DNA of 64,000 bases, taken from Acidobacteriota bacterium. Its GTDB lineage: Bacteria; Acidobacteriota; Terriglobia; Terriglobales; Acidobacteriaceae. The translations under genes were made by a program, and so were the position numbers. Location: the NCBI GenBank assembly GCA_021846275.1, contig JAJZBZ010000007.1:1-64000 (forward strand), in the 5' to 3' direction. Below the pieces are notes generated by a model, which had not been told where the DNA came from, ran no database searches, and worked only from the letters and a program-made list of their open reading frames with translations. Shown piece after piece: positions 23,589 to 53,230 of the stretch (positions are counted from its first letter, which is position 1; each line of letters begins with the position of its first letter).

Positions 23589-24620
23589 ATGGTGCAGTTC
23601 ACCGTTCTCGCGTCGGGATCCAAAGGCAACAGCGCCGTCCTGGCCGCCGGTTCCACGCGCCTGCTGCTGGACGCCGGACTCAGCGCACGGGAACTCTGCC
23701 GCCGCATGTTGACAGAGGGGATCGACCCCGCCACGCTCGACGCCATTCTCGTCACCCACGAACACTCCGACCACGTTCGCGGCCTCGGCGCGCTCGCTCG
23801 TCGACTCGGGATTCCCGTCTACCTGACCGAAGGCACTCATCGCGAGTGGCAGCGCATCGTGAACCCGCCGCCGCGCCAGACCTACTCGCAGTGGATCGAG
23901 GCGATGCGCGCCCGACGCGCCGCCGCCAGCACCGAAGAGAGCACCCACGAAGCGGGCTGCGCGGAGGCCAACAGCGTGGCCACCCTCGCCGCCAGCGAAG
24001 CGATCGCCGAGGCCAACGCTGATGGCGGCGCCGAAGAAGCCGAATCCAACGAATCCGAACTCGGTTGCATCACCTCGGATTCCGACGCAGCCAGCGCAAC
24101 CGTCGACCCCGCGCGCCTGCCCGAGGTCCATTACCTTCGACCCGGCGAGCCGATCACCCTCGGCGACTTCGAGGTTCATCCCTTCACCATCCCTCACGAC
24201 GCCGTCGACCCGGTCGCCTACGTCTTCCGCGCCGAGGGCCTCCGCATCGCCGTCGCCACGGACCTTGGCTACATCCCGCCCAACGTCGCCGCGCAGCTTC
24301 AGAACTGCGACGCGCTGATGCTGGAGTCCAATCACGACCTCGACATGCTCCGCGACGGCCCCTATCCGTGGTCCGTCAAGCAGCGCGTACTCTCCCGCGT
24401 CGGCCATCTCTCGAACGACACCGCCTCGGAGTTTCTGGAGCAGTCCTGGGACGGTCGCGCCGCCTGCGTCGTCCTTGCTCACCTGTCGGAGAGCAACAAC
24501 CTGCCCGAACTCGCCCGCGTCGCCGCCGAGCGCGCACTGGCCAGCCACACTGCCAATCTCTTCGCGCGAAAACTGCTCCTCGCCAGCCAGCACGAGCCAC
24601 TGGAAACCCTCCGCTTCTAA
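23589..24620 (+). CDS. Metallo-beta-lactamase-fold hydrolase (YycJ/WalJ-like) with insertion
   Basis: A 343-residue MBL-fold protein. It opens FTVLASGSKGNSAVLAAGST and contains the zinc motif THEHSDH (56-62); further metal ligands follow in IPHDAVDPVAY, VATDLGYIP and the C-terminal VLAHLSESNN. This matches the YycJ group, proposed 5'-3' exonucleases linked to cell-wall and DNA repair processes. Family members are about 260 residues; the extra length is an Ala/Glu/Ser-rich low-complexity stretch at about 105-170 between the core strands. Start is ATG 23589; an ATG 12 bases earlier is also in frame. The repeat arm begins about 80 bp after the stop. Confidence 0.88.
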   Translation: MVQFTVLASGSKGNSAVLAAGSTRLLLDAGLSARELCRRMLTEGIDPATLDAILVTHEHSDHVRGLGALARRLGIPVYLTEGTHREWQRIVNPPPRQTYSQWIEAMRARRAAASTEESTHEAGCAEANSVATLAASEAIAEANADGGAEEAESNESELGCITSDSDAASATVDPARLPEVHYLRPGEPITLGDFEVHPFTIPHDAVDPVAYVFRAEGLRIAVATDLGYIPPNVAAQLQNCDALMLESNHDLDMLRDGPYPWSVKQRVLSRVGHLSNDTASEFLEQSWDGRAACVVLAHLSESNNLPELARVAAERALASHTANLFARKLLLASQHEPLETLRF

Positions 24621-24699
24621 CCCTCGAAACCTCCAAATCCCCATCACTCGCCGCCATTCCTGCCGGTTTTGCATGTTGGCCGCTTCGTTTTCTTGCCGT

Positions 24700-25640
24700 C
24701 ATTCCCGCAGGGAATCAGCTTCTCAGCCGTCAGTCGTCAGCCGTCAGTCGTCAGCAAAGCCTTTGCCGTTGCTTTTGCCGTTGCCCTTGCCTTTGCTTTT
24801 CTTGTTGTCATTCCCGAAGGGAATCTGCTTCTGAGTCGTCAGTCGTCAGTCGTCAGCCGTCAGTCGTCAGCAAAGCCCCTGCCGTTGCTTTTGCTGTTGC
24901 CGTTGCTCTTGCTTTTGCCGTTGCTCTTGCTGTTGTATTTTTGTTGTCATTCCCGAAGGGAATCTGCTTCTGTTTTTGTTCTTGCTTTCCCGTCACCCTC
25001 CACCGCCCACCCCTGACGACTGACCCCTGACCCCTGACCACTCATCCCGTGGCATGCAATTATTCCCATCTGTGCCATACTGTCCTTCACTCACCCGGCG
25101 CAGTGCTCAGGGTGGACGCAAAGGATTACCAATCAGTAATCATTTCGCCAAAACTTCGTTGGCAAGAAAATAAATACCACCCCCCCTGGGGGGTAACCGG
25201 GTTAATAGTAAACCAGTAACCCGTCAAAAACCCTCTCAAACAATTGAATAATAGGCTGTTAACTCAAAACCATCGACCCCGTCGCTTCACAAAAACCCAA
25301 ACGCCAGCCCGCAACCATCGGGAGCGGCAAGGCGCGTCCGCGCGTCCGCTGCATGCAATGCTCATTCCCAAAGGGAATCTGCTTCAGAGTCGTCAGTGGT
25401 CAGTCGTCAGTGGTCAGTCGTCAGTGGTCAGTAAAAACTTCGCTCTTGCCTTTGCTCCTGCTGTTGTTTTTGCCTTTGCTGTTGTTTTTGCTTTTTTGTT
25501 GTCATTCCCGAAGGGAATCTGCTTTTGCTTTTTGCTTCAGCCTCAGCAAGCGCCAGCCCGCGACCAACGGGAGCGGCCACAAATGGTGGTGGCGCGCAAA
25601 GCGCGCGTCCGCTGCATGCAATGCGCATGCAATGCTGGAA
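24700..25640. repeat. Mosaic intergenic repeat, arm A of a long inverted repeat
   Basis: Non-coding DNA built from modules: the hairpin motif ATTCCCGAAGGGAAT or a close variant at 24701, 24810, 24949, 25364 and 25504; tandem seven-base GTCAGYC arrays (about 24727-24755, 24835-24872, 25389-25435); six-base GCYNTT runs between them; a unique-looking palindrome-rich core at about 25060-25250; and GCATTGCATGC-like plus GCGCGCAAAGCGCGC elements near 25600-25640. From about 24770 it matches the reverse complement of about 34930-35890 module by module, with scattered differences and small indels. The arm ends 30 bp before pheS and may supply its promoter. Open frames inside it are by-products of the hexamer and heptamer repeats. 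Confidence 0.92.
25124..25204. other. Palindrome cluster in the core of repeat arm A
   Basis: Four short inverted repeats follow each other: GATTAC-6-GTAATC (25124-25141), GCCAA-7-TTGGC (25147-25163), a C7-T-G6 block inside TACCA...GGTA (25175-25195) and TAACCGGGTTA (25194-25204). The stretch is clearly less GC-rich than the surroundings apart from the C/G tract. All four recur in arm B near 35400-35480, where the homopolymer lengths differ by one. They could be protein-binding sites or RNA hairpins; neither is shown. Confidence 0.6.
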
Positions 25641-25670
25641 CGCCAGTGCGTTATTCTGAGACGTACACCG

Positions 25671-26758
<1,088 letters not shown>

Positions 26759-26762
<4 letters not shown>

Positions 26763-28936
26763 ACATCCTCACCACATGGCTGCGCGCCCTGCTTCCGGAA
26801 CTCACCGTCACCGACGCCCAGCTTGGCGAAGACCTCACCCTGCGCGGCATCGCCGTCGAAGGCATTCACGATCTCGGATCGGGCAACGGCTCGCTCTTCG
26901 AGATGGACATCACCACCAACCGCGTCGACGCGATGAACCACTACGGCGTCGCGCGCGAAGCGGCAACCATCTACGGACTCACGCTCGCGCCCGGTGCGGC
27001 GCCGCTGCCCGCCGCACATCCGGCTGCCGCGCCGTTCCCCGTGCGCATCGAAGCCGAAGACGCCTGCGGACGATTCACCGCGCGCGTGCTGCGCCAGATA
27101 AAGATCGCGCCCACATCTTCGGTCAACGGTCCCATCAGCAGCTTCGCCTCGCGCATGTTCACGCTGCTCGAGCAGAAACAGATTTCCAACGCCGTCGATG
27201 CCTCCAACTTCGCCTGGCTCGCCATGGGCCAGCCCACGCACGCCTTCGACCTCGACAAAATCCACGGCGGCATCGTCGTCCGCCGCGCGCGCAAAGGCGA
27301 AACGCTCAAAACTCTCGACGGCGTCGAGCGCGCGCTCGACCCGGAAGACCTCATCGTCGCCGATCACGCCAAACCCCTCGCGCTGGCCGGCGTCATGGGC
27401 GGCTGGGAGACGATGATCACCCCGGCGACGACCAACGTTCTCGTCGAAGCCGCCTGGTTCGATCCCGTCGCCGTCCGCCGCACCGCGCGCCGCCACGGCC
27501 TCCACACCGACGCTTCCCATCGCTTTGAGCGCGGAGCCGACTTTGCCGCCGCCCCGCTCGCCTCGGCCATCGTCTCCGCGCTGCTGCTCGAAAACGGCGG
27601 CCACTGCGAGGGCGACCTCGTCGATCTCCAGATTCCCGCCATCGCCGCGCGCACCGCTAATCGCCCACCCGTCGCGCTCGCGCTCGCACAGGTCCACCGC
27701 CTGCTCGGGCAGACGCATGACTCCGAAGGGATCGCCACCGCCACCGTCGAATCCATCCTCAGCGGCCTCGGCTGCGGCCTCGTGCCGCAAACCGAAAGCG
27801 GCACCGGCGAAGCCTGGCTCGTCACCCTGCCCAGTTGGCGGCTCGACCTCGAACGCGAGATCGACCTCATCGAGGAGATCGCCCGCGTCCACGGGTACAA
27901 CCGCTTCGCCAACACCCTGCCTGCCTTCAGCGGAGCCGTCGCCGCGCGGCCCGGTGCCGCCGCCGAATCGCTGCTGCGCTTCACGCTCCGCGCGGCTGGC
28001 GTTCATGAGGCCATCGGCAGCACCTTCTGCTCGGCAGACGATGCCGCGCTCACCGAGCCGCAGCCCCGCGCGGCCGTGCCGCTCGAAAACCCGCTCAGCG
28101 CCGAGGCCGGACTGCTGCGCCCGTCGCTCATCCCGTCCATGCTCGCCATGCTCGGCGGCAATCTCCACCGCGACATCGCCGACGTGCGCCTCTTCGAGCT
28201 GGGCACGGTCTTCGCCGACGCCTCGCCGCGCTCAGCCAGCGCCGGCCGCGCCGCGGAACAGCTCATCGAGCGCGTCGAAGAGAGCCTCTCGCTCGCCATC
28301 GGCCTCGCCGGCTCGGTCGCCGAAGATGGCCTCGTCGCCGCGCTCGAGTTGGATTTCTTTCACCTCAAGGGCATCGTCGAGCAGCTCGTCGCCTGCTTCG
28401 CCGCGCAAAGCGTGCTCTTCGATACTTTCCCGTCCGACTGCGCGCTCACTCCCGCCTGGCTCCATCCCTTCCGCTCGGCGCGGCTCTCCGTCAACGGACT
28501 CACCCTCGGCTGGCTCGGCGAGTTGCACCCGCGCGAGGCCGCCGCGCGCAAATTTCGCAGCCGCGTCCTCGTCGCCGAACTGGCCGTCGATCGTCTGCTC
28601 ACCCTTCCGTTGCGCCGACCCGCTCTGCGCGAGCTGTCTCACTTCCAGCCCGTCCGCCGCGATTTCTCGCTGCTTGTGCCAGGCCGCCTCTGCTGGGCCG
28701 ATCTCGACCGCGCCATCGCGGCGCTTGGCATTCCAGAGATTCTCGACTGGCGTCTGCGCGAAATCCTCGCCACCGGCCCCGGCATTCCCGCCGACCACCA
28801 GGCGCTGCTCGTCAGCATCACCTTCCAGGCCGCAGACCGTACCCTCCGCGACGACGAGTTGCAAGCCTTCACCGCAGCCATCCTCGCCGCCACGGAACGC
28901 CTCGGCATTCGCCTGCGAGCGTCGGGTACTCAGTAG
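26759..28936 (+). CDS. pheT: Phenylalanyl-tRNA synthetase beta subunit, lacking the N-terminal tRNA-binding domain
   Basis: A 725-residue beta subunit. After about 35 residues (WLRALLPELTVTDAQL) it passes from IAVEGIHDLGSG directly to LFEMDITTNRVDAMNHYGVA. In E. coli PheT about 110 residues of EMAP-type (OB-fold) tRNA-binding domain separate these blocks, so that domain is absent. The B3/B4 editing domain (VDASNFAWLAMGQPTHAFDLDK and GVMGGWETMITPATT), the catalytic-like core (HRFERGADF; DIADVRLFELGTVF) and the C-terminal ferredoxin-fold anticodon-binding domain (FQPVRRDFSLLVP) are all present. The stop codon is embedded in a short GTCAG repeat remnant at about 28930-28957. Confidence 0.95.
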
Positions 28937-29034
28937 TCAGCAGTCAGCCGTCAGGGATTATGCGTCAGAGATCAGGAATTGACAACGGATGATTTACCTC
29001 TCACAACTGTCCCAGCCAGAACGCCAATCGGAGT

Positions 29035-29433
29035 ATGCTGCTGAAGATGGATTCTTTTGAAGCAAAGTTTTCCGTGAACCCCGCCTTCGCTGCGCTTGAA
29101 GAGCGTGTCCTGCGCGCCGTCGAGGCCGTCACCGCCGAGCGGGACCATCGCCGCGAAGCGGAGGCCCGCGCTGCGACAGCCGAAGCCCGCGTCGCCGCAG
29201 CCGAAACCCGCTGCGCCGCGCTCGAAGTCGATCTCGCCGCCGCCGCTCCCGAGCGCGAACAGCAGCAGCGCGAACTCGCCGCCCTGCGCAGCGAAATCGC
29301 CCTCCAGCGCGCCGAGCGCGAGCGCATTCTGGAGCGCGTCGACCGCATGCTGCGCCAGTTGGACGCACTCGAAGCCCGCTCGTCCGCCGACTCCACCACC
29401 GAAGGATCACCCGATGCCCACACCAATGGATGA
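29035..29433 (+). CDS. Small coiled-coil protein upstream of zapA
   Basis: A 132-residue protein that is almost entirely coiled coil: heptads rich in Ala, Glu and Arg from about residue 18 to 115 (for example RREAEARAATAEARVAAAE), followed by a Ser/Thr-rich tail. No catalytic motif or membrane segment. A second in-frame ATG at 29047 (MDSFEAKF) is an alternative start. Its 3' end overlaps zapA by 20 bp, so the two are probably co-translated. By position and shape it may be a partner of ZapA in Z-ring assembly, similar in logic to ZapB, but there is no sequence evidence of homology beyond coiled-coil character. Confidence 0.75.
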   Translation: MLLKMDSFEAKFSVNPAFAALEERVLRAVEAVTAERDHRREAEARAATAEARVAAAETRCAALEVDLAAAAPEREQQQRELAALRSEIALQRAERERILERVDRMLRQLDALEARSSADSTTEGSPDAHTNG

Positions 29434-29770
29434 GTCCAGTTTCGTCACCGTGGAAATCTATGGCCAGACCTACCATCTGGCAGGCGACAATCTGGATCGC
29501 GTCCGCCAGCTCGCCGCCCGCGTCGATGAGCAGATGCGCGCCGTGGCCCAGCAGGGTCGCACCGTCGATTCGCTGCGCGTGGCCGTACTGGCCGCTCTAA
29601 ATCTGGCCGACACGCTCGCCCGCGCCGAAGATCGCCTGGCCGCCCTGCAATCGAGCGCCACGCAGTCTGGCGACCCGGCCCATACGGCCATCAGCTTCGA
29701 AGCGCGTGAACTGGAAGCCCGCGCCCGCCGTCTGGCCGATGCTCTGGACCGTGTGCTGGCCGCAAGCTGA
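29414..29770 (+). CDS. zapA: Cell division protein ZapA
   Basis: A 118-residue ZapA. GAAGGA seven bases before ATG 29414 supports the start, inside the previous gene. The N-terminal domain has FVTVEIYGQTYHLAGDNLDR, then RQLAARVDEQMRAVAQQG; a helix with VAVLAALNLADTLARAEDRL leads to a C-terminal coiled coil. ZapA binds and bundles FtsZ polymers at mid-cell. A pheS-pheT-zapA arrangement is known from other bacteria. The roughly 275 bp after the stop contain no protein gene; a short GCCT-TCGGG-AGGC hairpin followed by TTTT near 29865-29893 may end a transcript. Confidence 0.9.
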   Translation: MPTPMDESSFVTVEIYGQTYHLAGDNLDRVRQLAARVDEQMRAVAQQGRTVDSLRVAVLAALNLADTLARAEDRLAALQSSATQSGDPAHTAISFEARELEARARRLADALDRVLAAS

Positions 29771-30045
29771 GCTTCAGTTGCCAGCAGTCTGATACCTGTT
29801 GATACCTGAGATCGAGATCAGCGATCCGAGCTACGTAGGCGGCGGTGGAACATTCAGGGAGTGAAGCCTTCGGGAGGCCGGTTACCTTTTATATACCAAT
29901 CAGTAACTCACGTCCGTCATTCAGCAAGATTGAGTAGTTGGTAAACGGAATAAAAATCATAGACTTAGTGTTTGCTCCCGCCTATTCTGACCGTGCGATA
30001 GAAATTCGTTTCTGTCAATACCAATTTTGTGGGAGTGACTACTTT

Positions 30046-30186
30046 ATGAACAAGATCGTCCGCATCGCCGCCCTCGCCGCCGTCGTCGGCACTGCCCTCC
30101 TCAGCTACTCCCTCCCGCAGTCGAAGTCGGCGAAGTTTATTCTACCGACGCCGTGCCCTATTCCAGGCATGACCACCGGCAAGTAA
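30046..30186 (+). CDS. 46-residue exported peptide, unknown
   Basis: ATG 30046 follows GGGAG at about 10 bases. The product starts MNKIVRIAALAAVVGTALLS, a short basic N-terminus and hydrophobic helix typical of a signal peptide, and leaves a small tail SLPQSKSAKFILPTPCPIP then GMTTGK, with a single Cys between prolines. A UUCG-loop hairpin (AGAAA/TTTCT, 30000-30013) lies in the leader. The region is clearly more AT-rich than its surroundings. It is followed 105 bp later by a seven-helix membrane protein gene on the same strand. A secreted signal or small periplasmic peptide is possible. I do not recognise it. Confidence 0.55.
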   Translation: MNKIVRIAALAAVVGTALLSYSLPQSKSAKFILPTPCPIPGMTTGK

Positions 30187-30203
30187 AGCAACTGCAGCTT
30201 CTA

Positions 30204-30219
30204 CATACAAAGTTGTATG
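30204..30219. promoter_or_regulatory. Palindrome and possible -10 element before the seven-helix gene
   Basis: CATACAAAGTTGTATG is a perfect seven-base inverted repeat around AG, in an AT-rich gap, about 70 bp before the gene at 30292. A TATTAT at 30261-30266 could be its -10 hexamer; no good -35 is present, which would suit activator dependence. The two-base centre is better explained as a dimeric operator than as an RNA hairpin. Confidence 0.4.
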
Positions 30220-30291
30220 AGCAAATTTTAAATTCCCCGTCGTCAGTCCGGTTTTGGCGGTATTATATGGCTATCCGTTAAGAGGGTAGCC

Positions 30292-31167
30292 ATGCTTCAT
30301 TTATTAGTTCAATACGCAGCTATAGAAGTGGACATTGCGATAATGGCAGCGGTTTCCGTCGTTTTTCGCTCGGGGACGCTTCGCTTCTTGTGGAGATCTG
30401 TTTCGGATTTTGCTGTCGTAAAGTCGGTCGGCGAAACGATAATGCTTCTGTTGTTGATGACTTCAGCGCAGATGCTGCCTCAGACGTTCAAGGTCAGTTA
30501 TTTCATTGCCTTTTATGGGATGTTTATCGCCCTTACATTGCTTACGCTCCGTATCTATTACCAGATTTACATAAGGGCAACAGTGCCTTTTCAGGGTTTT
30601 GCAAAGTGGGGCAAGTCGATTTTTGCACTTGTAATCCTCACGATGGCCATCATGACTCTCATGACGTTCGGCCAGATCAATGCGGGAGCAGACGTCTTGA
30701 CGCGAGCAGGAATTAACTTTTTGCGTGCTGTCAATACGGTCGATTTTTGCTTTGTCGCATTTCTTTGCTACCTGATCCGCGCGATGGGTATGCCTTTGCG
30801 TGGCAAAGTCTTTGGCGTCATGTTCGGTTTTGCAATTGGAAATTTCGCCAGCTTCCTACAGATGTTGTTCATGCAATTCAATATCAATCCCGGCTTCGTG
30901 GTAACCTTCCTCATCGAGTATTCAAGCGTGGTCTCCGCCCTGATTTGGATCGGCTATGCCTTCCTTCCTGAACCGCTGCCTCGTCCCGTTGCAGTTCCCG
31001 CCGAGTCTCCGGTCTATCGCTGGAGCCAGATTGCGAACGCCCTCGGAGCGAAGACCAGCGTGGCCATGCCGGAGCCGCAGCACAGCTTCTTCCTGGCCGA
31101 TGTGGAGCAGGTGGTGGACAAGGTCTTCACGCGCCACATGCAGGAGTCGCCGGAGTCGAACGGCTGA
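30292..31167 (+). CDS. Seven-helix membrane protein, unknown
   Basis: A 291-residue protein with seven hydrophobic helices at about 4-25, 46-62, 68-92, 108-125, 146-165, 171-193 and 199-225, then a cytoplasmic tail of about 65 residues. The tail contains a Pro-rich linker (EPLPRPVAVPAESP) and a short helical end (FFLADVEQVVDKVFTRHMQE). There is no retinal lysine in helix seven, no transporter signature and no kinase or GGDEF domain. The layout resembles 7TM sensor proteins. The preceding tiny exported peptide and the intervening palindrome suggest they form a unit. A strong terminator follows the gene. GC content is lower than that of its neighbours, compatible with horizontal acquisition. 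Confidence 0.7.
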   Translation: MLHLLVQYAAIEVDIAIMAAVSVVFRSGTLRFLWRSVSDFAVVKSVGETIMLLLLMTSAQMLPQTFKVSYFIAFYGMFIALTLLTLRIYYQIYIRATVPFQGFAKWGKSIFALVILTMAIMTLMTFGQINAGADVLTRAGINFLRAVNTVDFCFVAFLCYLIRAMGMPLRGKVFGVMFGFAIGNFASFLQMLFMQFNINPGFVVTFLIEYSSVVSALIWIGYAFLPEPLPRPVAVPAESPVYRWSQIANALGAKTSVAMPEPQHSFFLADVEQVVDKVFTRHMQESPESNG

Positions 31168-31200
31168 ATCATCTTTCGCAGGACAGTGAATCTTCCGCCC

Positions 31201-31240
31201 GCGGCTGAGTGATGTTCCCGGAGGAACATCACTCAGCCGC
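31201..31240 (+). terminator. Terminator-like hairpin, 18-bp perfect stem
   Basis: GCGGCTGAGTGATGTTCC at 31201-31218 pairs perfectly with 31223-31240 around the loop CGGA and is followed by AAGTGTTTTAG. It lies 33 bp after the stop of the seven-helix gene and faces the convergent transporter gene, so it may serve both strands. Confidence 0.75.
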
Positions 31241-31304
31241 AAGTGTTTTAGCCGCAATCCCCGCTGCGCTCCTGACGACTGACTCCTGACCCTCTACTAC
31301 TGGC

Positions 31305-32216
31305 TCACGCTCCCTCGGTCAGCGCTGTTGCGGCTCCGTGTGTGCGCATGGCGATGTATAACCCCGAGGCCAGGATCACGAAGCCGCCCGCGAGCACGTA
31401 TCCGCCGGGCAGGATGCGCCAGACGAGCCAGGTGACGAGGGTTCCCGTAATCAGTTGGGTGTAGTGGTACTGCGAAACTGTCGCAGCCGACGTGTGCTTG
31501 ACCGCGACGTAAAAGCAGAGCGTGCCGAGCGCACAGAAAAATCCCATCGCAGCCAGACCCACGGCCAGCTTCGTCGTCAGCGGCTGCCAGCCCCACACGC
31601 CCATCCACACGAGGCCCACGGCGCAGGTGACCAGGCCAGAGAAAAACGCCAGGCTCTCCGGCTGCTCGGTGCGCGTGAGCACGCGCGACCAGACCATGTT
31701 GGTGGAAAAGCAAAGGACGCAGACGGCGCAGGCCGCAACGCCGGTCCAGTCCCAGTCGCCGGTGCTCGTGGCGCTCCACGGGTGTACGGCGAGCACGACG
31801 CCGCTGAATCCTGCCGCGATGGCCGTCGCCTTGCGCCAGGGCAATCCCTCGCCGAGGACCGTGGCCGAGAGCAGCGAGATGAGCATCGGCGCGGTGAAGA
31901 TGAGGATGTAAAAGAGCGTCAGCGTGAGGTGGCGCAGCGCGATGACGACGCAGACGTTGTTGGCCATGTCCAGGCATGCGCGCAGAAGTTGCAGTTTCAG
32001 GCGATGGGGCCGCAGCCGCCCTGACTCGCCGCGCAAAGCCATCCAGCCTCCAAGAAAAATAGCCATGCCGAGGCCGAGGAAGGCGACCATCTCGTAGGCG
32101 GGCATCCCGGACTGGCCGACCAGCTTGATCGAACTGTCGGCCAGCACCCAGAAGGTGAATCCGGCAAGAGCGTAGCCGATCGCGCCCAGTTCCGAGACCG
32201 TCGTGCGCTTGTTCAT
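31305..32216 (-). CDS. EamA-family drug/metabolite transporter
   Basis: A 303-residue membrane protein with ten helices in two EamA repeats: FTFWVLADSSIKLVGQSGMP near the start, and IFTAPMLISLLSATVLGEGL ending the first repeat; SQYHYTQLITGTLVTWLV belongs to the last helices. The order of charged residues (an Asp in helix one, RACLDMANNVCVVIALRHL at helix four) is that of the RhaT/S-adenosylmethionine-like branch of EamA proteins, but substrate is not known. The gene starts 25 bp after the gyrB stop on the same strand and could be read from the gyrB promoter. Confidence 0.85.
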   Translation of the reverse strand: MNKRTTVSELGAIGYALAGFTFWVLADSSIKLVGQSGMPAYEMVAFLGLGMAIFLGGWMALRGESGRLRPHRLKLQLLRACLDMANNVCVVIALRHLTLTLFYILIFTAPMLISLLSATVLGEGLPWRKATAIAAGFSGVVLAVHPWSATSTGDWDWTGVAACAVCVLCFSTNMVWSRVLTRTEQPESLAFFSGLVTCAVGLVWMGVWGWQPLTTKLAVGLAAMGFFCALGTLCFYVAVKHTSAATVSQYHYTQLITGTLVTWLVWRILPGGYVLAGGFVILASGLYIAMRTHGAATALTEGA

Positions 32217-32241
32217 GCTGGCTTCGCGATCTGCTCGGCGC

Positions 32242-34857
<2,616 letters not shown>

Positions 34858-34925
34858 CTACGGAAATCCGCCGCGAAAACGCGCTCCAACGCAGAGAAAA
34901 CTTTGCCATTTACACCTCAATTTTA

Positions 34926-35990
34926 CCACGGCATTGCATGCAGGCATTGCATGCAGCGGACGCGCGCTTTGCGCGCCACCACCATTTGTGGCCGCTCCCG
35001 CTGGTCGGCATTGCATGCAGCAGCCGCGCGCTTTGCGCGCCACGGACAGTTGTTACCGCTTCCGATGGTCGCGGACTGGCGCTTGCTGAAGCTGAAGCAA
35101 AAAGCGAAAGCAGATTCCCTTCGGGAATGACAACAAAAAAGCAAAAACAACAGCAAAGGCAAAAACAACAGCAGGAGCAAAGGCAAGAGCGAGGTTTTTA
35201 CTGACCACTGACGACTGACCACTGACGGCTCTGAAGCAGATTCCCTTTGGGAATGAGCATTGCATGCAGCAGACGCGCGGACGCGCCTTGCCGCTCCCGC
35301 TGGTTGCGGGCTGGCGTTTAGATTTCTGTGAAGGGACGGGAGCGATAGTTTTGAGCTAATAGTCTATTATTCAATTGTTTGGGCGGGTTTTTGACGGGTT
35401 ACTGGTTTACTATTAACCCGGTTACCCCCCCAGGGGGGTGGTATTTATTTTCTTGCCAACGAACTTTTGGCGAAACGATTACTGGTTGGTAATCCTTTGC
35501 GCCTACCCTGAACACTGCGCCGGAACGCTGTGCCGGGTGAGTGAAGGACAGTATGGCACAGATGGGAATAATTGCATGCCACGGGATGAGTGGTCAGGGG
35601 TCAGTCGTCAGGGATGGGCGGTGGAGGGTGACGGGAAAGCAAGAACAAAAGCAAAAGCAGATTCCCTTCGGGAATGACAACAAAAATACAACAGCAAGAG
35701 CAACGGCAACAGCAAGAGCAAGGGCAACAGCAAAAGCAACGGCAGGGGCTTTGCTGACGACTGACGGCTGACGACTGACGACTGACGACTGACGACTCAG
35801 AAGCAGATTCCCTGCGGGAATGACAACAAGAAAAGCAAAGGCAAGGGCAACGGCAACAGCAAAGGCAAGAGCAACGGCAAAAGCAACGGCAAGGGCAGCG
35901 GCAAAAGCAAGGACGGCGCTGGCATCTGCTTTTCCCACCCACGCGAAGCCTGGATGGGGCAGCCGGGCTGGTGGAGGGTGATGGATTGAT
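34926..35990. repeat. Mosaic intergenic repeat, arm B of the long inverted repeat
   Basis: The reverse complement matches arm A in the same module order: hairpins ATTCCC...GGGAAT at 35114, 35240, 35661 and 35807; GTCAG-type heptamers (seen here as GACGACT) at about 35204-35228, 35590-35615 and 35755-35800; GCYNTT hexamers (as AAYRGC-like text) at 35130-35190 and 35680-35930; the palindrome core at about 35340-35580; and two GCGCGCTTTGCGCGC blocks at 34960-35045. The left end has one more GCATTGCATGC unit than arm A. The outer end, about 35910-35990, contains CCCACCCACGCGAAGCCTGG, also present in the short copy at 53.2 kb. No gene is supported between 34792 and 36066. Confidence 0.92.
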
Positions 35991-36003
35991 GGAGGGTGAA
36001 GGG

Positions 36004-36042
36004 AAAAGGAAAACCCGGCGCGGGAGTGGTCCCGCGCCGGGT
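36004..36042 (-). terminator. Rho-independent terminator after rplT
   Basis: A perfect 13-bp stem (ACCCGGCGCGGGA at 36013-36025 with 36030-36042) and loop GTGG. The A-rich AAAAGGAAA at its left is the U tract on the minus strand. It begins 24 bp after the rplT stop. Confidence 0.85.
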
Positions 36043-36066
36043 CTGGTTTTCGCCGAGGACGGCGTG

Positions 36067-36441
36067 TTAGCTGGCGGTGGTGGCGGTGGCCAGGGCGGCG
36101 CGGGCCTGCTGAACAAGGCTGGTGAAGCCGGCGGCGTCCTGGACGGCGATGTCGGCCAGCATCTTGCGGTCCAGCTCGATGCCGGCCTTGCGCAGGCCGT
36201 TGATGAGCTGGGAGTAGCTGAAGTTGTTCAGCTTGGCGGCGGCCGAGATGCGGACGATCCAGAGGGAGCGGAACTGGCGCTTCTTCTGGCGGCGACCGAT
36301 GTAGGCGAACTTGAGTCCGCGCTCGACGGCTTCCTGAGCGGCCTGGTAGAGCTTGGATTTGGTGAGGAAGTAGCCGCTGGCCCGTTTCAGGATTTTCTTG
36401 CGGCGATCATGTCGTTTGGTTCCACGTTTGACGCGAGGCAT
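36067..36441 (-). CDS. rplT: 50S ribosomal protein L20
   Basis: A 124-residue L20 beginning [20 protein letters not shown], with the conserved [20 protein letters not shown] and [20 protein letters not shown] segments and the C-terminal [20 protein letters not shown]-like region. L20 binds 23S rRNA early in 50S assembly and in some bacteria represses its own operon through the mRNA leader. It follows rpmI by 190 bp, a longer gap than usual. Upstream in-frame sequence beyond ATG 36441 is not L20-like. Confidence 0.97.
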
Positions 36442-36632
36442 TTGAGTTGCTCCTTTTTTGCGTTTGGTTCTGCGGCTGGAGGCAGGAGGCGCAGGGGAAA
36501 ATCCTGCGCTGACCTCTTCACACGCTTGTCTTGCCTGGGATCGCCCGGCTGGGATTTTCGTCCCGGACCGTGGGGGCCGTGCAACGCATTGGCTGGCCCT
36601 TGCCCGGCGGCTGGTGAGAGCCGCGGACTGTT

Positions 36633-36830
36633 TCAGGCGTAGGGGATCATGCGGGCCACTTTGTCGTGGTCGGCATCGGAGACCAGAAGGGTTTTGCTGA
36701 GCTTGGCCTTGGTCTTGGGCAGCTTCGACGTGAGGATGTGGCGCATCTTGGACTGTCGGCGGGTGATTTTGCCGCTGCCGGTCTTTGCGAAGCGCTTGGC
36801 CGCGCCGGAGTGAGTTTTGAGTTTCGGCAT
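36633..36830 (-). CDS. rpmI: 50S ribosomal protein L35
   Basis: A 65-residue L35: [20 protein letters not shown], then [16 protein letters not shown] and the C-terminal VARMIPYA. The length and motifs are standard. In most bacteria infC lies immediately upstream on the same transcript. Here the nearest upstream gene is a secreted esterase whose stop is 234 bp away, and infC is about 4.5 kb away, so rpmI-rplT must have a promoter in this gap or be read through from the hydrolase genes. Confidence 0.96.
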
Positions 36831-37064
36831 GTTTTTCTCGTGTCTCGGCTGGATTCGGAGGCCGCGCCAGACCGTGGGGTCGGGCGAAGGCTGGAGCAGC
36901 CGGGGTGATTCCGCTTGCGGGGCGACAAAGAAAGCCTGCGCGCCGGGCGGACTCAATTAGTATACCGCAGGTGGAATTTCCGCGCCACGGGGTTGTTTGT
37001 CGCCGCACAGGCGAGCGGCAGGAGCGATTTCGAGCTGTCGGGACGGCTGACCACTGTGCGCGTC

Positions 37065-50480: not shown

Positions 50481-53033
50481 GTGGCGAAGCGATTCATCTG
50501 TATTCACGGGCATTTTTATCAGCCTCCGCGGGAGAATCCGTGGCTGGAGACGGTGGAGACGCAGGAGTCGGCGGCGCCGTATCACGACTGGAACGAACGG
50601 ATCACGGCGGAGTGTTATGCGACGAATGGCGCGTCGCGGATTGTGGACAAGCGCAACCGCATTGTGCGGATTGTGAACAACTATGCGCGGATGAGTTTCA
50701 ACTTTGGTCCGACGCTGCTGAGCTGGCTGGCGGAGAAGGCTCCGCGCGCGTATCGGGCGGTGCTGGATGGGGAGCGGCGCAGCCGGGAGACGTTCAAGGG
50801 ACACAGTTCGGCGCTGGCGCAGGTGTATAACCATGTGATTCTGCCGCTGGCGAGCGAGCGCGACCGGCGGACGCAGATTCGCTGGGGGATTGCGGATTAT
50901 CGCGCGCGTTTTGGGCGGATGCCGGAGGGGATGTGGCTGGCGGAGACGGCGGCGGATGAGCGATCGCTGGAGATGCTGGCTGAGGAAGGGATTCGCTTCA
51001 CGGTGCTGGCGCCGCATCAGTGCGGGCGTGTGCGCGCGATTGAGTGGGAGCGCGGGGAAAAAACCGCGCGGCGCGGGGATGTGGCAGCGGACGAGCAGAA
51101 GCAGGCGGCAGCGCGCGCAGTGGGCGAGTGGGTGGAGACGCCGGGAGACGCGACGCGGGCGACGGTGGATACGACGCGGCCGTATCTGGTGCGGTTTGCA
51201 TCGGGCCGTTCGCTGGCGGTGTTTTTTTACAACGGGCCGATCTCTCGCGCGGTGGCGTTCGAGGGGTTGCTGAACTCGGGCGAGGCGTTTGCGTCACGGC
51301 TGAAGACGGGCTTTCGCGAGGGGGCGCAGACGGCGCAGCTGGTGCATATTGCCACGGATGGGGAGAGCTATGGGCACCACCACAAGCATGGCGAGATGGC
51401 GCTGAGCTACGCGCTGAAGCTGATGGAAGAGGACGCGACGGTGGGGCTGGCGAATTATGGGAGTTTTCTGGCCGAGTATCCGCCGACGATGGAGGCGGAG
51501 ATTGTCGAGAATACTTCGTGGAGCTGCTCGCATGGGGTGGAGCGATGGAGGTCGGATTGCGGCTGCAACGGGGGACGCGCGGGCTGGAACCAGAAGTGGC
51601 GCGGGCCGCTGCGCGAGGCGCTGGACATGGTGCGCGATGGCGTGGTGGCGCTGACGGAGGAGTTGGGTGGGCGACTGTTTCAGGATGTTTGGGCGGCGCG
51701 GGACGGGTATATTCGCGTGCTGCTGGATCGCTCGGCGGAGAGTGAGTTTCTGAACGAATTTGCGGCGCGGGAGCTGAGCCACGCGGAGCGGGTGCAGGCG
51801 CTGGGGCTGATGGAGATGCAGCGGCATGCGCAGTTGATGTACACGAGCTGCGGATGGTTTTTTGACGATATTTCCGGCATTGAGACGGTGCAGGTGATTG
51901 CGTATGCGGCGCGGGTGCTGCAACTGGCGCGGGCGGTGAGCGGGGAGCTGACGCTTGATCTGGAAGATCGTTTTCTGGCGAAGCTGGCGGAGGCGAAATC
52001 GAATGTGGCGTCGGAGGGCGATGGCGAGCGGATTTATCGCGAGCGCGTGCTGCCGATGCAGACGACGCTGGAGCAGGTGGCGGCGCATTACGCGATCAGC
52101 GCGGTGTACTCGTCGTTTGCCGACGAGACGGAGCTTTTCTGCTATCGGATTCGGCGGCTGAGCGAGGAGACGCTCAGCTCGGGGAATGGACGGCTGGCGC
52201 TGGGGCATGTGCGGCTGGAATCGACGATCACGGACCACGCGGAGGAGTTTACGTACGCGGTTATGCACTTTGGAGACCAGAATATTTCGGCTGGCGTGAA
52301 GGCGCTGGGCCAGGGCGATGATGCGGCGCTGCGCGCCCTGACGGCGGAGCTGCGCGAGGTTGTGGGTCGAGCGGATTTTGCCGAGGTGATACGGCTGCTG
52401 GACAGGAATTACGAGCTGAAGTATTCGCTGCGCTCGCTGTTTCGCGACGAGCAGCAGAGGATTGTGCATCTAATTTTGCGCTCGGCGCTGCGCGATATTG
52501 AGGCGTCGTTGACGGGGATTTATGAGAACCACGCGAGCCTGCTGCACTATCTTTCACGAGCCGAGCTGCCGAAGCCGCAGGGGCTGACGCTGGCGGCCGG
52601 GTACGCGATCAACGTGGGTCTGAAGCGCGCGCTGGACGAGGAGACGGTGGACGCGGCGCGGGTGAGGGAACTGCTGCGGATGGCCGATGAGGACGACATT
52701 ACGCTGGACGCGACGGCGCTGAGCTATCAGGCGGACCAGAAGATGAAACGGATGATGGTGGAGCTGCAGATGACTTCGGGCGGGCTGGAGACGCTGGAGC
52801 GCGCGCTGACGCTGGCGCGGCTGCTGCGCGAGATGCCGTTCGAGTTGAATCTGTGGCAGGCGCAGAATCTGTGGTACGAGATATTCCGCAGCGCGGAGCA
52901 CTCGCTGACCGGGCACGCGCCGGAACAACGACCGGAGTGGAAGCGGAAGTTCGACGAACTGGGCGAGTGCCTGGGGATTGCCTGCGACGAAATCACGACG
53001 GATGCACCGATGACCACCGTTCCCGGCGACTAG
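50481..53033 (+). CDS. Glycoside hydrolase family 57 protein with DUF3536 region
   Basis: An 850-residue protein starting at GTG 50481 after GGGAG. The GH57 motifs are clear: IHGHFYQPPRENP (8-20), RRTQIRWGIADYRARFG and MPEGMWLAETAADERSLEML with the predicted nucleophile Glu155, then HQCG, and THE-like text HIATDGESYGHHHKHGE carrying the second acid. The C-terminal half (after about 400) is a helical region matching the domain often fused to this GH57 subgroup. No signal peptide is seen, so the enzyme is cytoplasmic and may act on glycogen-type alpha-glucans. Its stop codon abuts the short repeat copy. Confidence 0.88.
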   Translation: MAKRFICIHGHFYQPPRENPWLETVETQESAAPYHDWNERITAECYATNGASRIVDKRNRIVRIVNNYARMSFNFGPTLLSWLAEKAPRAYRAVLDGERRSRETFKGHSSALAQVYNHVILPLASERDRRTQIRWGIADYRARFGRMPEGMWLAETAADERSLEMLAEEGIRFTVLAPHQCGRVRAIEWERGEKTARRGDVAADEQKQAAARAVGEWVETPGDATRATVDTTRPYLVRFASGRSLAVFFYNGPISRAVAFEGLLNSGEAFASRLKTGFREGAQTAQLVHIATDGESYGHHHKHGEMALSYALKLMEEDATVGLANYGSFLAEYPPTMEAEIVENTSWSCSHGVERWRSDCGCNGGRAGWNQKWRGPLREALDMVRDGVVALTEELGGRLFQDVWAARDGYIRVLLDRSAESEFLNEFAARELSHAERVQALGLMEMQRHAQLMYTSCGWFFDDISGIETVQVIAYAARVLQLARAVSGELTLDLEDRFLAKLAEAKSNVASEGDGERIYRERVLPMQTTLEQVAAHYAISAVYSSFADETELFCYRIRRLSEETLSSGNGRLALGHVRLESTITDHAEEFTYAVMHFGDQNISAGVKALGQGDDAALRALTAELREVVGRADFAEVIRLLDRNYELKYSLRSLFRDEQQRIVHLILRSALRDIEASLTGIYENHASLLHYLSRAELPKPQGLTLAAGYAINVGLKRALDEETVDAARVRELLRMADEDDITLDATALSYQADQKMKRMMVELQMTSGGLETLERALTLARLLREMPFELNLWQAQNLWYEIFRSAEHSLTGHAPEQRPEWKRKFDELGECLGIACDEITTDAPMTTVPGD

Positions 53034-53230
53034 CATTGCATGCAGGCATTGCATGCAGCGGACGCGCGCTTTGCGCGCCACGGACGGTTGTTACCGCTCC
53101 CGTTGGTCGCGGGTGGGCGCTTGCTGAGGACGACGGGAAAGCAAAACATCAGCAAAGGCAGCGATGGCGCTGGCATCTATTTTTCCCACCCAAGCGAAGC
53201 CTGGATGGGGCACCCGGTTTTGTTGAGAGT
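53034..53230. repeat. Short copy of the mosaic repeat
   Basis: Starts right at the GH57 stop with two GCATTGCATGCAG units, then GCGCGCTTTGCGCGC, and a TTGTTACCGCTCCCGTTGG-like stretch, as in arm B (34928-35090). It then jumps to a GCGCTGGCATCT segment and the outer-end text CCCACCCAAGCGAAGCCTGG, as in arm B near 35915-35960. The middle modules (hairpins, heptamers, palindrome core) are missing. It separates GH57 from the convergent membrane protein gene. Confidence 0.8.

Follow-up and report, generated by a model that had tools for sequence, protein, structure and literature searches.

The gene pair and its control elements

The window analysed here is a stretch of 64,000 nucleotides from a genome of the family Acidobacteriaceae; its forward strand carries a tiny gene for a putatively exported peptide followed by a gene for a predicted seven-helix membrane (7TM) protein. 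The peptide gene (30046..30186, from an ATG at 30046 to a stop codon ending at 30186) has 46 codons, and its homologues adjoin the 7TM gene in relatives; inspection places a ribosome-binding site, GGGAG, graded good, at 30031..30035. The product has Lys/Arg and hydrophobic residues at its N-terminus and, at its other end, a short Pro-rich tail containing a single Cys; the signal-peptide-like start described in the first-pass annotation is confirmed. Cleavage after S-K-S-A, the site suggested by inspection, would leave residues 30-46 (30133..30183) as the putative mature tail. The 7TM gene (30292..31167, with its ATG at 30292 and a stop codon ending at 31167) encodes 291 residues, which an AlphaFold2 (AF2) model folds in a GPCR-like arrangement. 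The unit had also been described as lower in GC than its surroundings, which is true of the 7TM gene (51.0% against 63.9% for the whole window) but hardly of the peptide gene (61.7%).

Upstream of the pair in the window lie zapA and, by reading of the list of open reading frames, pheT; downstream, on the other strand, lie a gene for an EamA transporter and gyrB. In the window gyrB is thus two genes downstream, while in 55 of 125 long loci of relatives a gene read as gyrB stands divergently upstream of the pair. Genes named by reading as gyrB and ribosomal-protein genes recur as neighbours. No widely shared third gene that might serve as an output was present among the neighbours of the 125 loci, one unnamed family lies directly downstream of the pair in 7 of them, and no recurrent exporter or modification gene was recognised among the common neighbour clusters inspected, which were not matched to families. 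An inverted repeat pair of about 880 bp (24763-25624 and 35008-35868, 90% identical), with a partial copy at 53032-53217, encloses zapA, the peptide-7TM pair, the EamA gene and gyrB.

The clearest of the control elements follows the 7TM gene: the terminator hairpin, with its 18-bp stem (arms 31201-31218 and 31223-31240, forward strand) and 4-nt loop, is exactly as first annotated and folds far better than expected (z = -8.1). Between the two genes, what had been called a perfect 16-bp palindrome is indeed an inverted repeat, CATACAA-AG-TTGTATG (30204..30219), and relatives have a conserved one there as well; it is built, more precisely, of two 7-bp arms (30204-30210 and 30213-30219) around a 2-nt centre. 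By eye it probably corresponds to the CACNAAAGTG inverted repeat that relatives carry, a core present in the spacers of 62 of 182 loci, mostly within an inverted repeat, against 6 matches elsewhere in 930 kb of loci; the core is missing from loci of the downstream type and from several other groups. The spacers of relatives also hold a promoter of the form TTGAN-N17/18-CTATNCT (52 of 159, shuffle mean 0.06), and the -10 element proposed for the window, TATTAT (30261..30266), sits by eye where relatives have the conserved -10 of a promoter belonging to the 7TM gene itself, but a consensus promoter scan of the window found none. Since the spacers of relatives share both CACNAAAGTG and TTGAN-N17/18-CTATNCT, and the window's elements, by eye, occupy the same places, the 7TM gene probably has its own promoter. 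In the window the two genes are predicted to be transcribed from separate promoters and to end at a common terminator. The intergenic repeat looks locus-specific: a search with GCACNAAAGTGC gave 17 matches in 12 genomes, of which 7 fall at this locus by coordinate comparison and 10 elsewhere; a backwards-pattern control gave 21, and the notion of a regulon was rejected.

Two RNA structures were considered. An 11-bp hairpin (30266..30294) is predicted by folding to span the ribosome-binding site and start codon of the 7TM gene, the whole spacer having a z of -2.45; over 182 loci the mean z across the 7TM start is -1.7 against mononucleotide shuffles, and such a hairpin was rejected as a general feature, the start codon being mostly paired in only 70 of the 182. 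The UUCG-loop hairpin earlier placed in the leader of the peptide gene was not upheld: this region folds no better than its shuffles (z = 0.29), and an Rfam search of 24000-37000 returned four matches (E 0.48-0.84), all under the gathering scores and none in the leader. The leader itself (29880-29990) is 70-72% conserved in two relatives, one of which has it in two places (G008:C157 and G008:C231).

Conservation of the pair

The pairing, which the first-pass annotation had drawn from proximity, is strongly supported by comparison across relatives. Among 202 distinct homologues of the 7TM gene, picked by the 7TM sequence alone and blind to the peptide gene, 182 are adjoined by a small gene for an exported peptide, which lies upstream in 165 and downstream in 17, whereas the same criteria applied to the opposite strand yielded 3 of 202. 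With nothing but a strict profile cut-off (E <= 1e-3), 179 of the 182 are recovered. Homologues of the 7TM gene therefore do not regularly lack the small gene. The 20 misses comprise 9 whose flank is too short to judge and 11 with adequate flank, one of the latter being a second 7TM gene in the genome from which the window comes. This second gene (G000:C11:345163-345807) is distant from the first and has no detectable peptide gene in the 8.6 kb around it; a peptide search of the same genome gave a single match, the window's peptide gene itself.

An early scan, with a peptide profile built from 24 sequences, had found a match at E <= 0.01 upstream in 94 of 140 loci, not all of them distinct, against 3 of 1643 control ORFs, and the three control matches proved to be peptide genes as well, all of them downstream of a single 7TM gene; among 80 regions fetched after that scan, 58 had a peptide match. 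In the 76 named loci, which come from Acidobacteriaceae or unplaced Acidobacteria (Terracidiphilus/Occallatibacter, Acidicapsa and many MAGs), the peptide gene is present in 68, six of the eight misses having no more than 160 bases of upstream sequence. The 72 peptide ORFs detected there (E <= 0.01, both strands, loci of up to about 8.9 kb) all lie upstream of the 7TM gene on its strand. The reverse test leads to the same partnership: the peptide profile, run genome-wide in 120 genomes of the family, gave 87 matches at E <= 0.01, of which 76 adjoin a 7TM gene on the same strand (52 known earlier, 24 in fetched DNA), 3 lie at contig ends and 8 are spurious, falling in long or interrupted frames or in an unrelated protein rich in Cys; about 800 bases separate one of these 8 from a 7TM gene. 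None of the 120 genomes showed a clear orphan peptide gene. Two families without a convincing Pfam or NCBIfam match thus form one conserved unit.

The order of the two genes is not fixed. It is reversed in one group, where the peptide gene lies downstream (17 genes) and the partnership is kept. This bears directly on the idea that the small frame is a leader peptide controlling the gene that follows, its product being irrelevant. The frame does lie within 200 bp of the 7TM gene in 157 of 164 upstream cases, and the window has a hairpin at the 7TM start; control from upstream is nevertheless contradicted by the frame's downstream position in 17 of 182, for which this reading was dropped. The conserved promoter that the 7TM gene has to itself in the spacer in 52 of 159, and constraint at the protein level (pN/pS, below), also speak against it, and a leader or attenuator is scarcely credible.

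Peptide and 7TM distances correlate strongly when 110 sampled pairs are compared (r 0.62, 0 of 1000 permutations as high), a co-divergence that may be merely shared descent; in 15 pairs from one paralogue-rich genus r is 0.10, with 985 of 5000 permutations as high, which is not significant.

The 7TM family is nearly universal in one bacterial family. Its profile matches 283 of 300 genomes of the Acidobacteriaceae, in 76 of 79 genera, with at most eight candidates scored per genome, and between species the distribution is not patchy, the sample holding one genome per species. In a phylum-wide sample 25 of 247 genomes match, all 25 in the Acidobacteriaceae, so that across these 247 genomes the 7TM family was seen only there. 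The window's peptide and 7TM protein have no Pfam match; searches of Pfam and NCBIfam with 18 and 24 family members gave weak matches only, to one member each, and lipo_YqiH (E 0.00045), spoVE (0.002) and hit_Bd0108 (0.01) were taken as chance and rejected as family names. In the part of the literature covered, outside which lie bioRxiv and most subscription journals, no account of this pair was recognised.

This distribution also weighs on a bacteriocin-immunity system, in which the exported peptide would inhibit neighbouring cells and the 7TM protein would protect the producer. A small exported peptide adjoining a membrane protein, paralogues whose tails differ and tandem copies would all suit such a system. 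Bacteriocin loci typically have a patchy, strain-level distribution, whereas across species, at one genome each, the 7TM family is found in 283 of 300 genomes; the setting of the pair is often a conserved housekeeping one (the gene read as gyrB, divergently upstream in 55 of 125), the tails are near neutral and no recurrent exporter or modification gene was recognised in the common neighbour clusters inspected, all of which makes this explanation quite unlikely.

The predicted seven-helix protein

The 7TM gene had been annotated as an orphan 7TM protein with a cytoplasmic tail; the gene is confirmed, and its AF2 model (54 sequences, mean pLDDT 83.4, pTM 0.78) shows seven long helices and then a short one, with a final helix at the C-terminus. 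The last two make up the predicted cytoplasmic tail (30964..31164), seen in both the model and the alignment: a helix-8-like helix (residues 240-252), in which Trp 244 is conserved in 208 of 220 sequences, and a C-terminal helix (residues 266-285), which carries the motif FFLxDVExVV in the close group. Across the 220 aligned sequences the predicted inner loops hold 2.1-3.5 Lys and Arg against 0.6-1.0 in the outer loops, the tail being of mixed charge; as the inner loops are the richer in these residues, the predicted topology is N-terminus out and C-terminus in. Strongly conserved positions in the alignment include, among others, Y70, G175, G179, W219, Y222 and W244. At its inner end, helix 3 carries E-x-[FY]-R in many relatives (E91 in 169 and R94 in 111 of 220), and the window's protein has Q and I at these two positions; such sites may resemble the DRY and NPxxY sites of GPCRs.

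Re-alignment with VIA-align, which works on Foldseek candidates only and warns that a Z below about 13 in helical bundles may reflect a mere common arrangement, gave for the window's model Z scores of 12.0-13.9 (rmsd 3.4-5.2, 180-226 residues aligned) among the matches listed, and all 50 listed are GPCR-type folds, among them LYCHOS and designed GPCR-like folds. For a second AF2 model, that of the T. gabretensis homologue (pLDDT 82), the matches listed are likewise of GPCR type (Z 11.0-12.6), one title leaving its receptor unnamed. Foldseek by itself was weak: its best E is 0.05, to a zinc transporter in the first row, and structures of Ste2 are found among the weak rows. The two models have alignment rows in common, GPCRs are abundant in the PDB, the candidates are bound to those of Foldseek and the Foldseek E values are weak, and for these reasons we describe the modelled arrangement as GPCR-like and claim no membership of the GPCRs. 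In sequence, 18 family members gave no match to the Pfam 7tm models, and a profile search of PDB sequences returned nothing but two chance-level rows for TMEM262. No kinase domain was found in the window's 7TM protein or in 17 homologues.

The peptide family and a candidate peptide-receptor system

The 182 homologous precursors are 40-106 residues long (median 56.5). All 182 have Lys/Arg near the start, which is partly a selection rule; A-x-A falls between residues 15 and 36 in 133, a count for which no control was run, and a lipobox-like site occurs in 3. The last 20 residues are rich in Pro, Gly and Cys, with 22% Pro and a near-neutral mean charge of +0.31. The single Cys between prolines of the earlier description is correct for the window's peptide but is not the norm of the family, in which 159 of 182 tails have two Cys, 16 have none, one has one and 6 have three or four; P-x-P-x(0,1)-C is found in 148 of 182, and the two Cys are usually spaced by 4-7 residues. 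In the window's closest relatives the Cys pair is gone and the tail is highly variable, while the hydrophobic start is kept. The genome G176 (loci L077, L082, L087 and L071) has Cys-less peptides with other tails beside 7TM paralogues: APxPxPxGxxRG in seven tandem genes and, in three others, TGTDPxPTxP and then a hydrophobic end.

These Cys counts are pertinent to an envelope sensor, in which a Cys-pair peptide would stay in the cell's own periplasm and report its redox or envelope state to the 7TM protein, with no message between cells. Two Cys in 159 of 182 tails, mostly 4-7 residues apart, would fit this role, as would the host, which we take to be diderm, so that release of the peptide through the outer membrane is not given. 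The 16 tails without Cys, those of the window's close relatives included, nevertheless keep the pairing, and such a sensor appears very unlikely.

The peptides are multiplied at two levels, within genes and between them. One precursor (L272) holds four tandem copies of AMPIPTCSPGAKC(H/K), another (L273) three tandem copies of G(F/L)HGPLPVPMP and a third (L269) two copies of EDGGPIPVRPPK; at a further locus (L270), three neighbouring genes have different signal peptides and an identical tail. At 17 loci 2-7 tandem peptide genes accompany a single 7TM gene, a count that leaves out one locus with masked bases (L159) and includes two that are near-identical (L281 and L282). Occallatibacter/Terracidiphilus gabretensis has four tandem peptide genes at locus L186. 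Tandem copies in 14 arrays give a pN/pS of 0.24 for the signal region and of 0.14 for the tail, the pairs not being independent of one another; one array (L077) shows the opposite, its tail varying more than the signal region. A pN/pS well below 1, the conserved tail motif and the position of the gene on either side of its partner all support translation of the small frame.

The same data can be set against a small membrane subunit, in which the small protein would remain in the membrane by its N-terminal helix and stabilise or regulate the 7TM protein. Small membrane subunits are common in bacteria, and the window's clade conserves the hydrophobic segment more closely than the tail; yet 2-7 tandem peptide genes stand beside one 7TM gene, the mature unit is repeated within precursors, the tail is more constrained than the signal region in the summed arrays and a signal-peptidase-like A-x-A is present in 133 of 182. 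A subunit of this kind is unlikely and, because both the peptide genes and their mature units are multiplied, a released peptide needed in quantity is favoured over a one-to-one membrane subunit.

We regard a peptide ligand with its cognate 7TM receptor as the best reading of the pair, and a probable one on the present sequences and models. The small gene would yield a precursor exported by the Sec system, from which signal peptidase would remove the start to leave a short Pro/Gly-rich peptide, closed by a disulfide in most relatives; these steps follow features of the sequence. The peptide might then bind to the outer side of the 7TM protein encoded next to it, whether on its own cell or on one close by, and this protein would relay a conformational change to its cytoplasmic helices and on to a further partner. 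Binding and signalling are suggested by the partnership, the multiplication and the architecture, and a ligand and receptor of this kind may carry a message between cells or within one cell's periplasm. A wider proposal, which we advance tentatively and with somewhat more doubt than conviction, is that the Acidobacteriaceae have a bacterial version of signalling by peptides and GPCRs. In it, Pro-rich peptides exported by Sec and closed by a disulfide, encoded in tandem genes or as several copies per precursor, would act on dedicated, stand-alone GPCR-like 7TM receptors whose signal passes through a helix-8-like tail, and some genomes would have several private channels. Among monoderm bacteria, peptide signalling through kinases or cytosolic receptors has been described in detail; little is known of it in diderm ones, and we know of no stand-alone 7TM peptide receptor in any bacterium. 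Should the ligand-receptor reading of the pair hold, it would provide a communication system for abundant and little understood soil bacteria, about 180 ligand-receptor pairs ready to be tested, and a bacterial GPCR-like receptor to compare with the eukaryotic ones.

Known systems that invite comparison are the Agr, Fsr and Com quorum-sensing systems, the Phr and AimP peptides, class II bacteriocins with their immunity proteins, and the yeast alpha-factor precursor with its class D GPCR, Ste2. As in Agr, Fsr and Com, a peptide precursor with predicted export and a membrane protein are encoded side by side (182/202); in those systems the receptor is a membrane histidine kinase, whereas the window's 7TM protein and 17 homologues matched no kinase domain, and the present pair by itself includes no response regulator, processing protease or exporter and occurs in diderm hosts. 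With Phr and AimP (RRNPP) the pair shares a small exported precursor, the PhrK and AimP models giving one weak, chance-level match each (E 0.14 and 0.28), but its partner is a predicted 7TM membrane protein instead of a cytosolic TPR receptor. Class II bacteriocin-immunity pairs also join a small exported peptide to an adjoining membrane-protein gene; unlike them, the present pair has a GPCR-like 7TM partner, is nearly universal in its family and has near-neutral, Pro-rich tails. The 7TM protein resembles GPCRs in its predicted seven transmembrane helices and N-terminus-out, C-terminus-in topology, although no sequence relationship to any GPCR family was found (Pfam with 18 members; PDB profile search). 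By comparison with alpha-factor and Ste2, the pair described here is bacterial, its genes are adjacent, its peptide has a Sec-type signal and usually a Cys pair, no sequence match was found and no G protein is known for it; like the yeast system, it combines a secreted peptide, as predicted here, with tandem mature units in the precursor and a 7TM partner.
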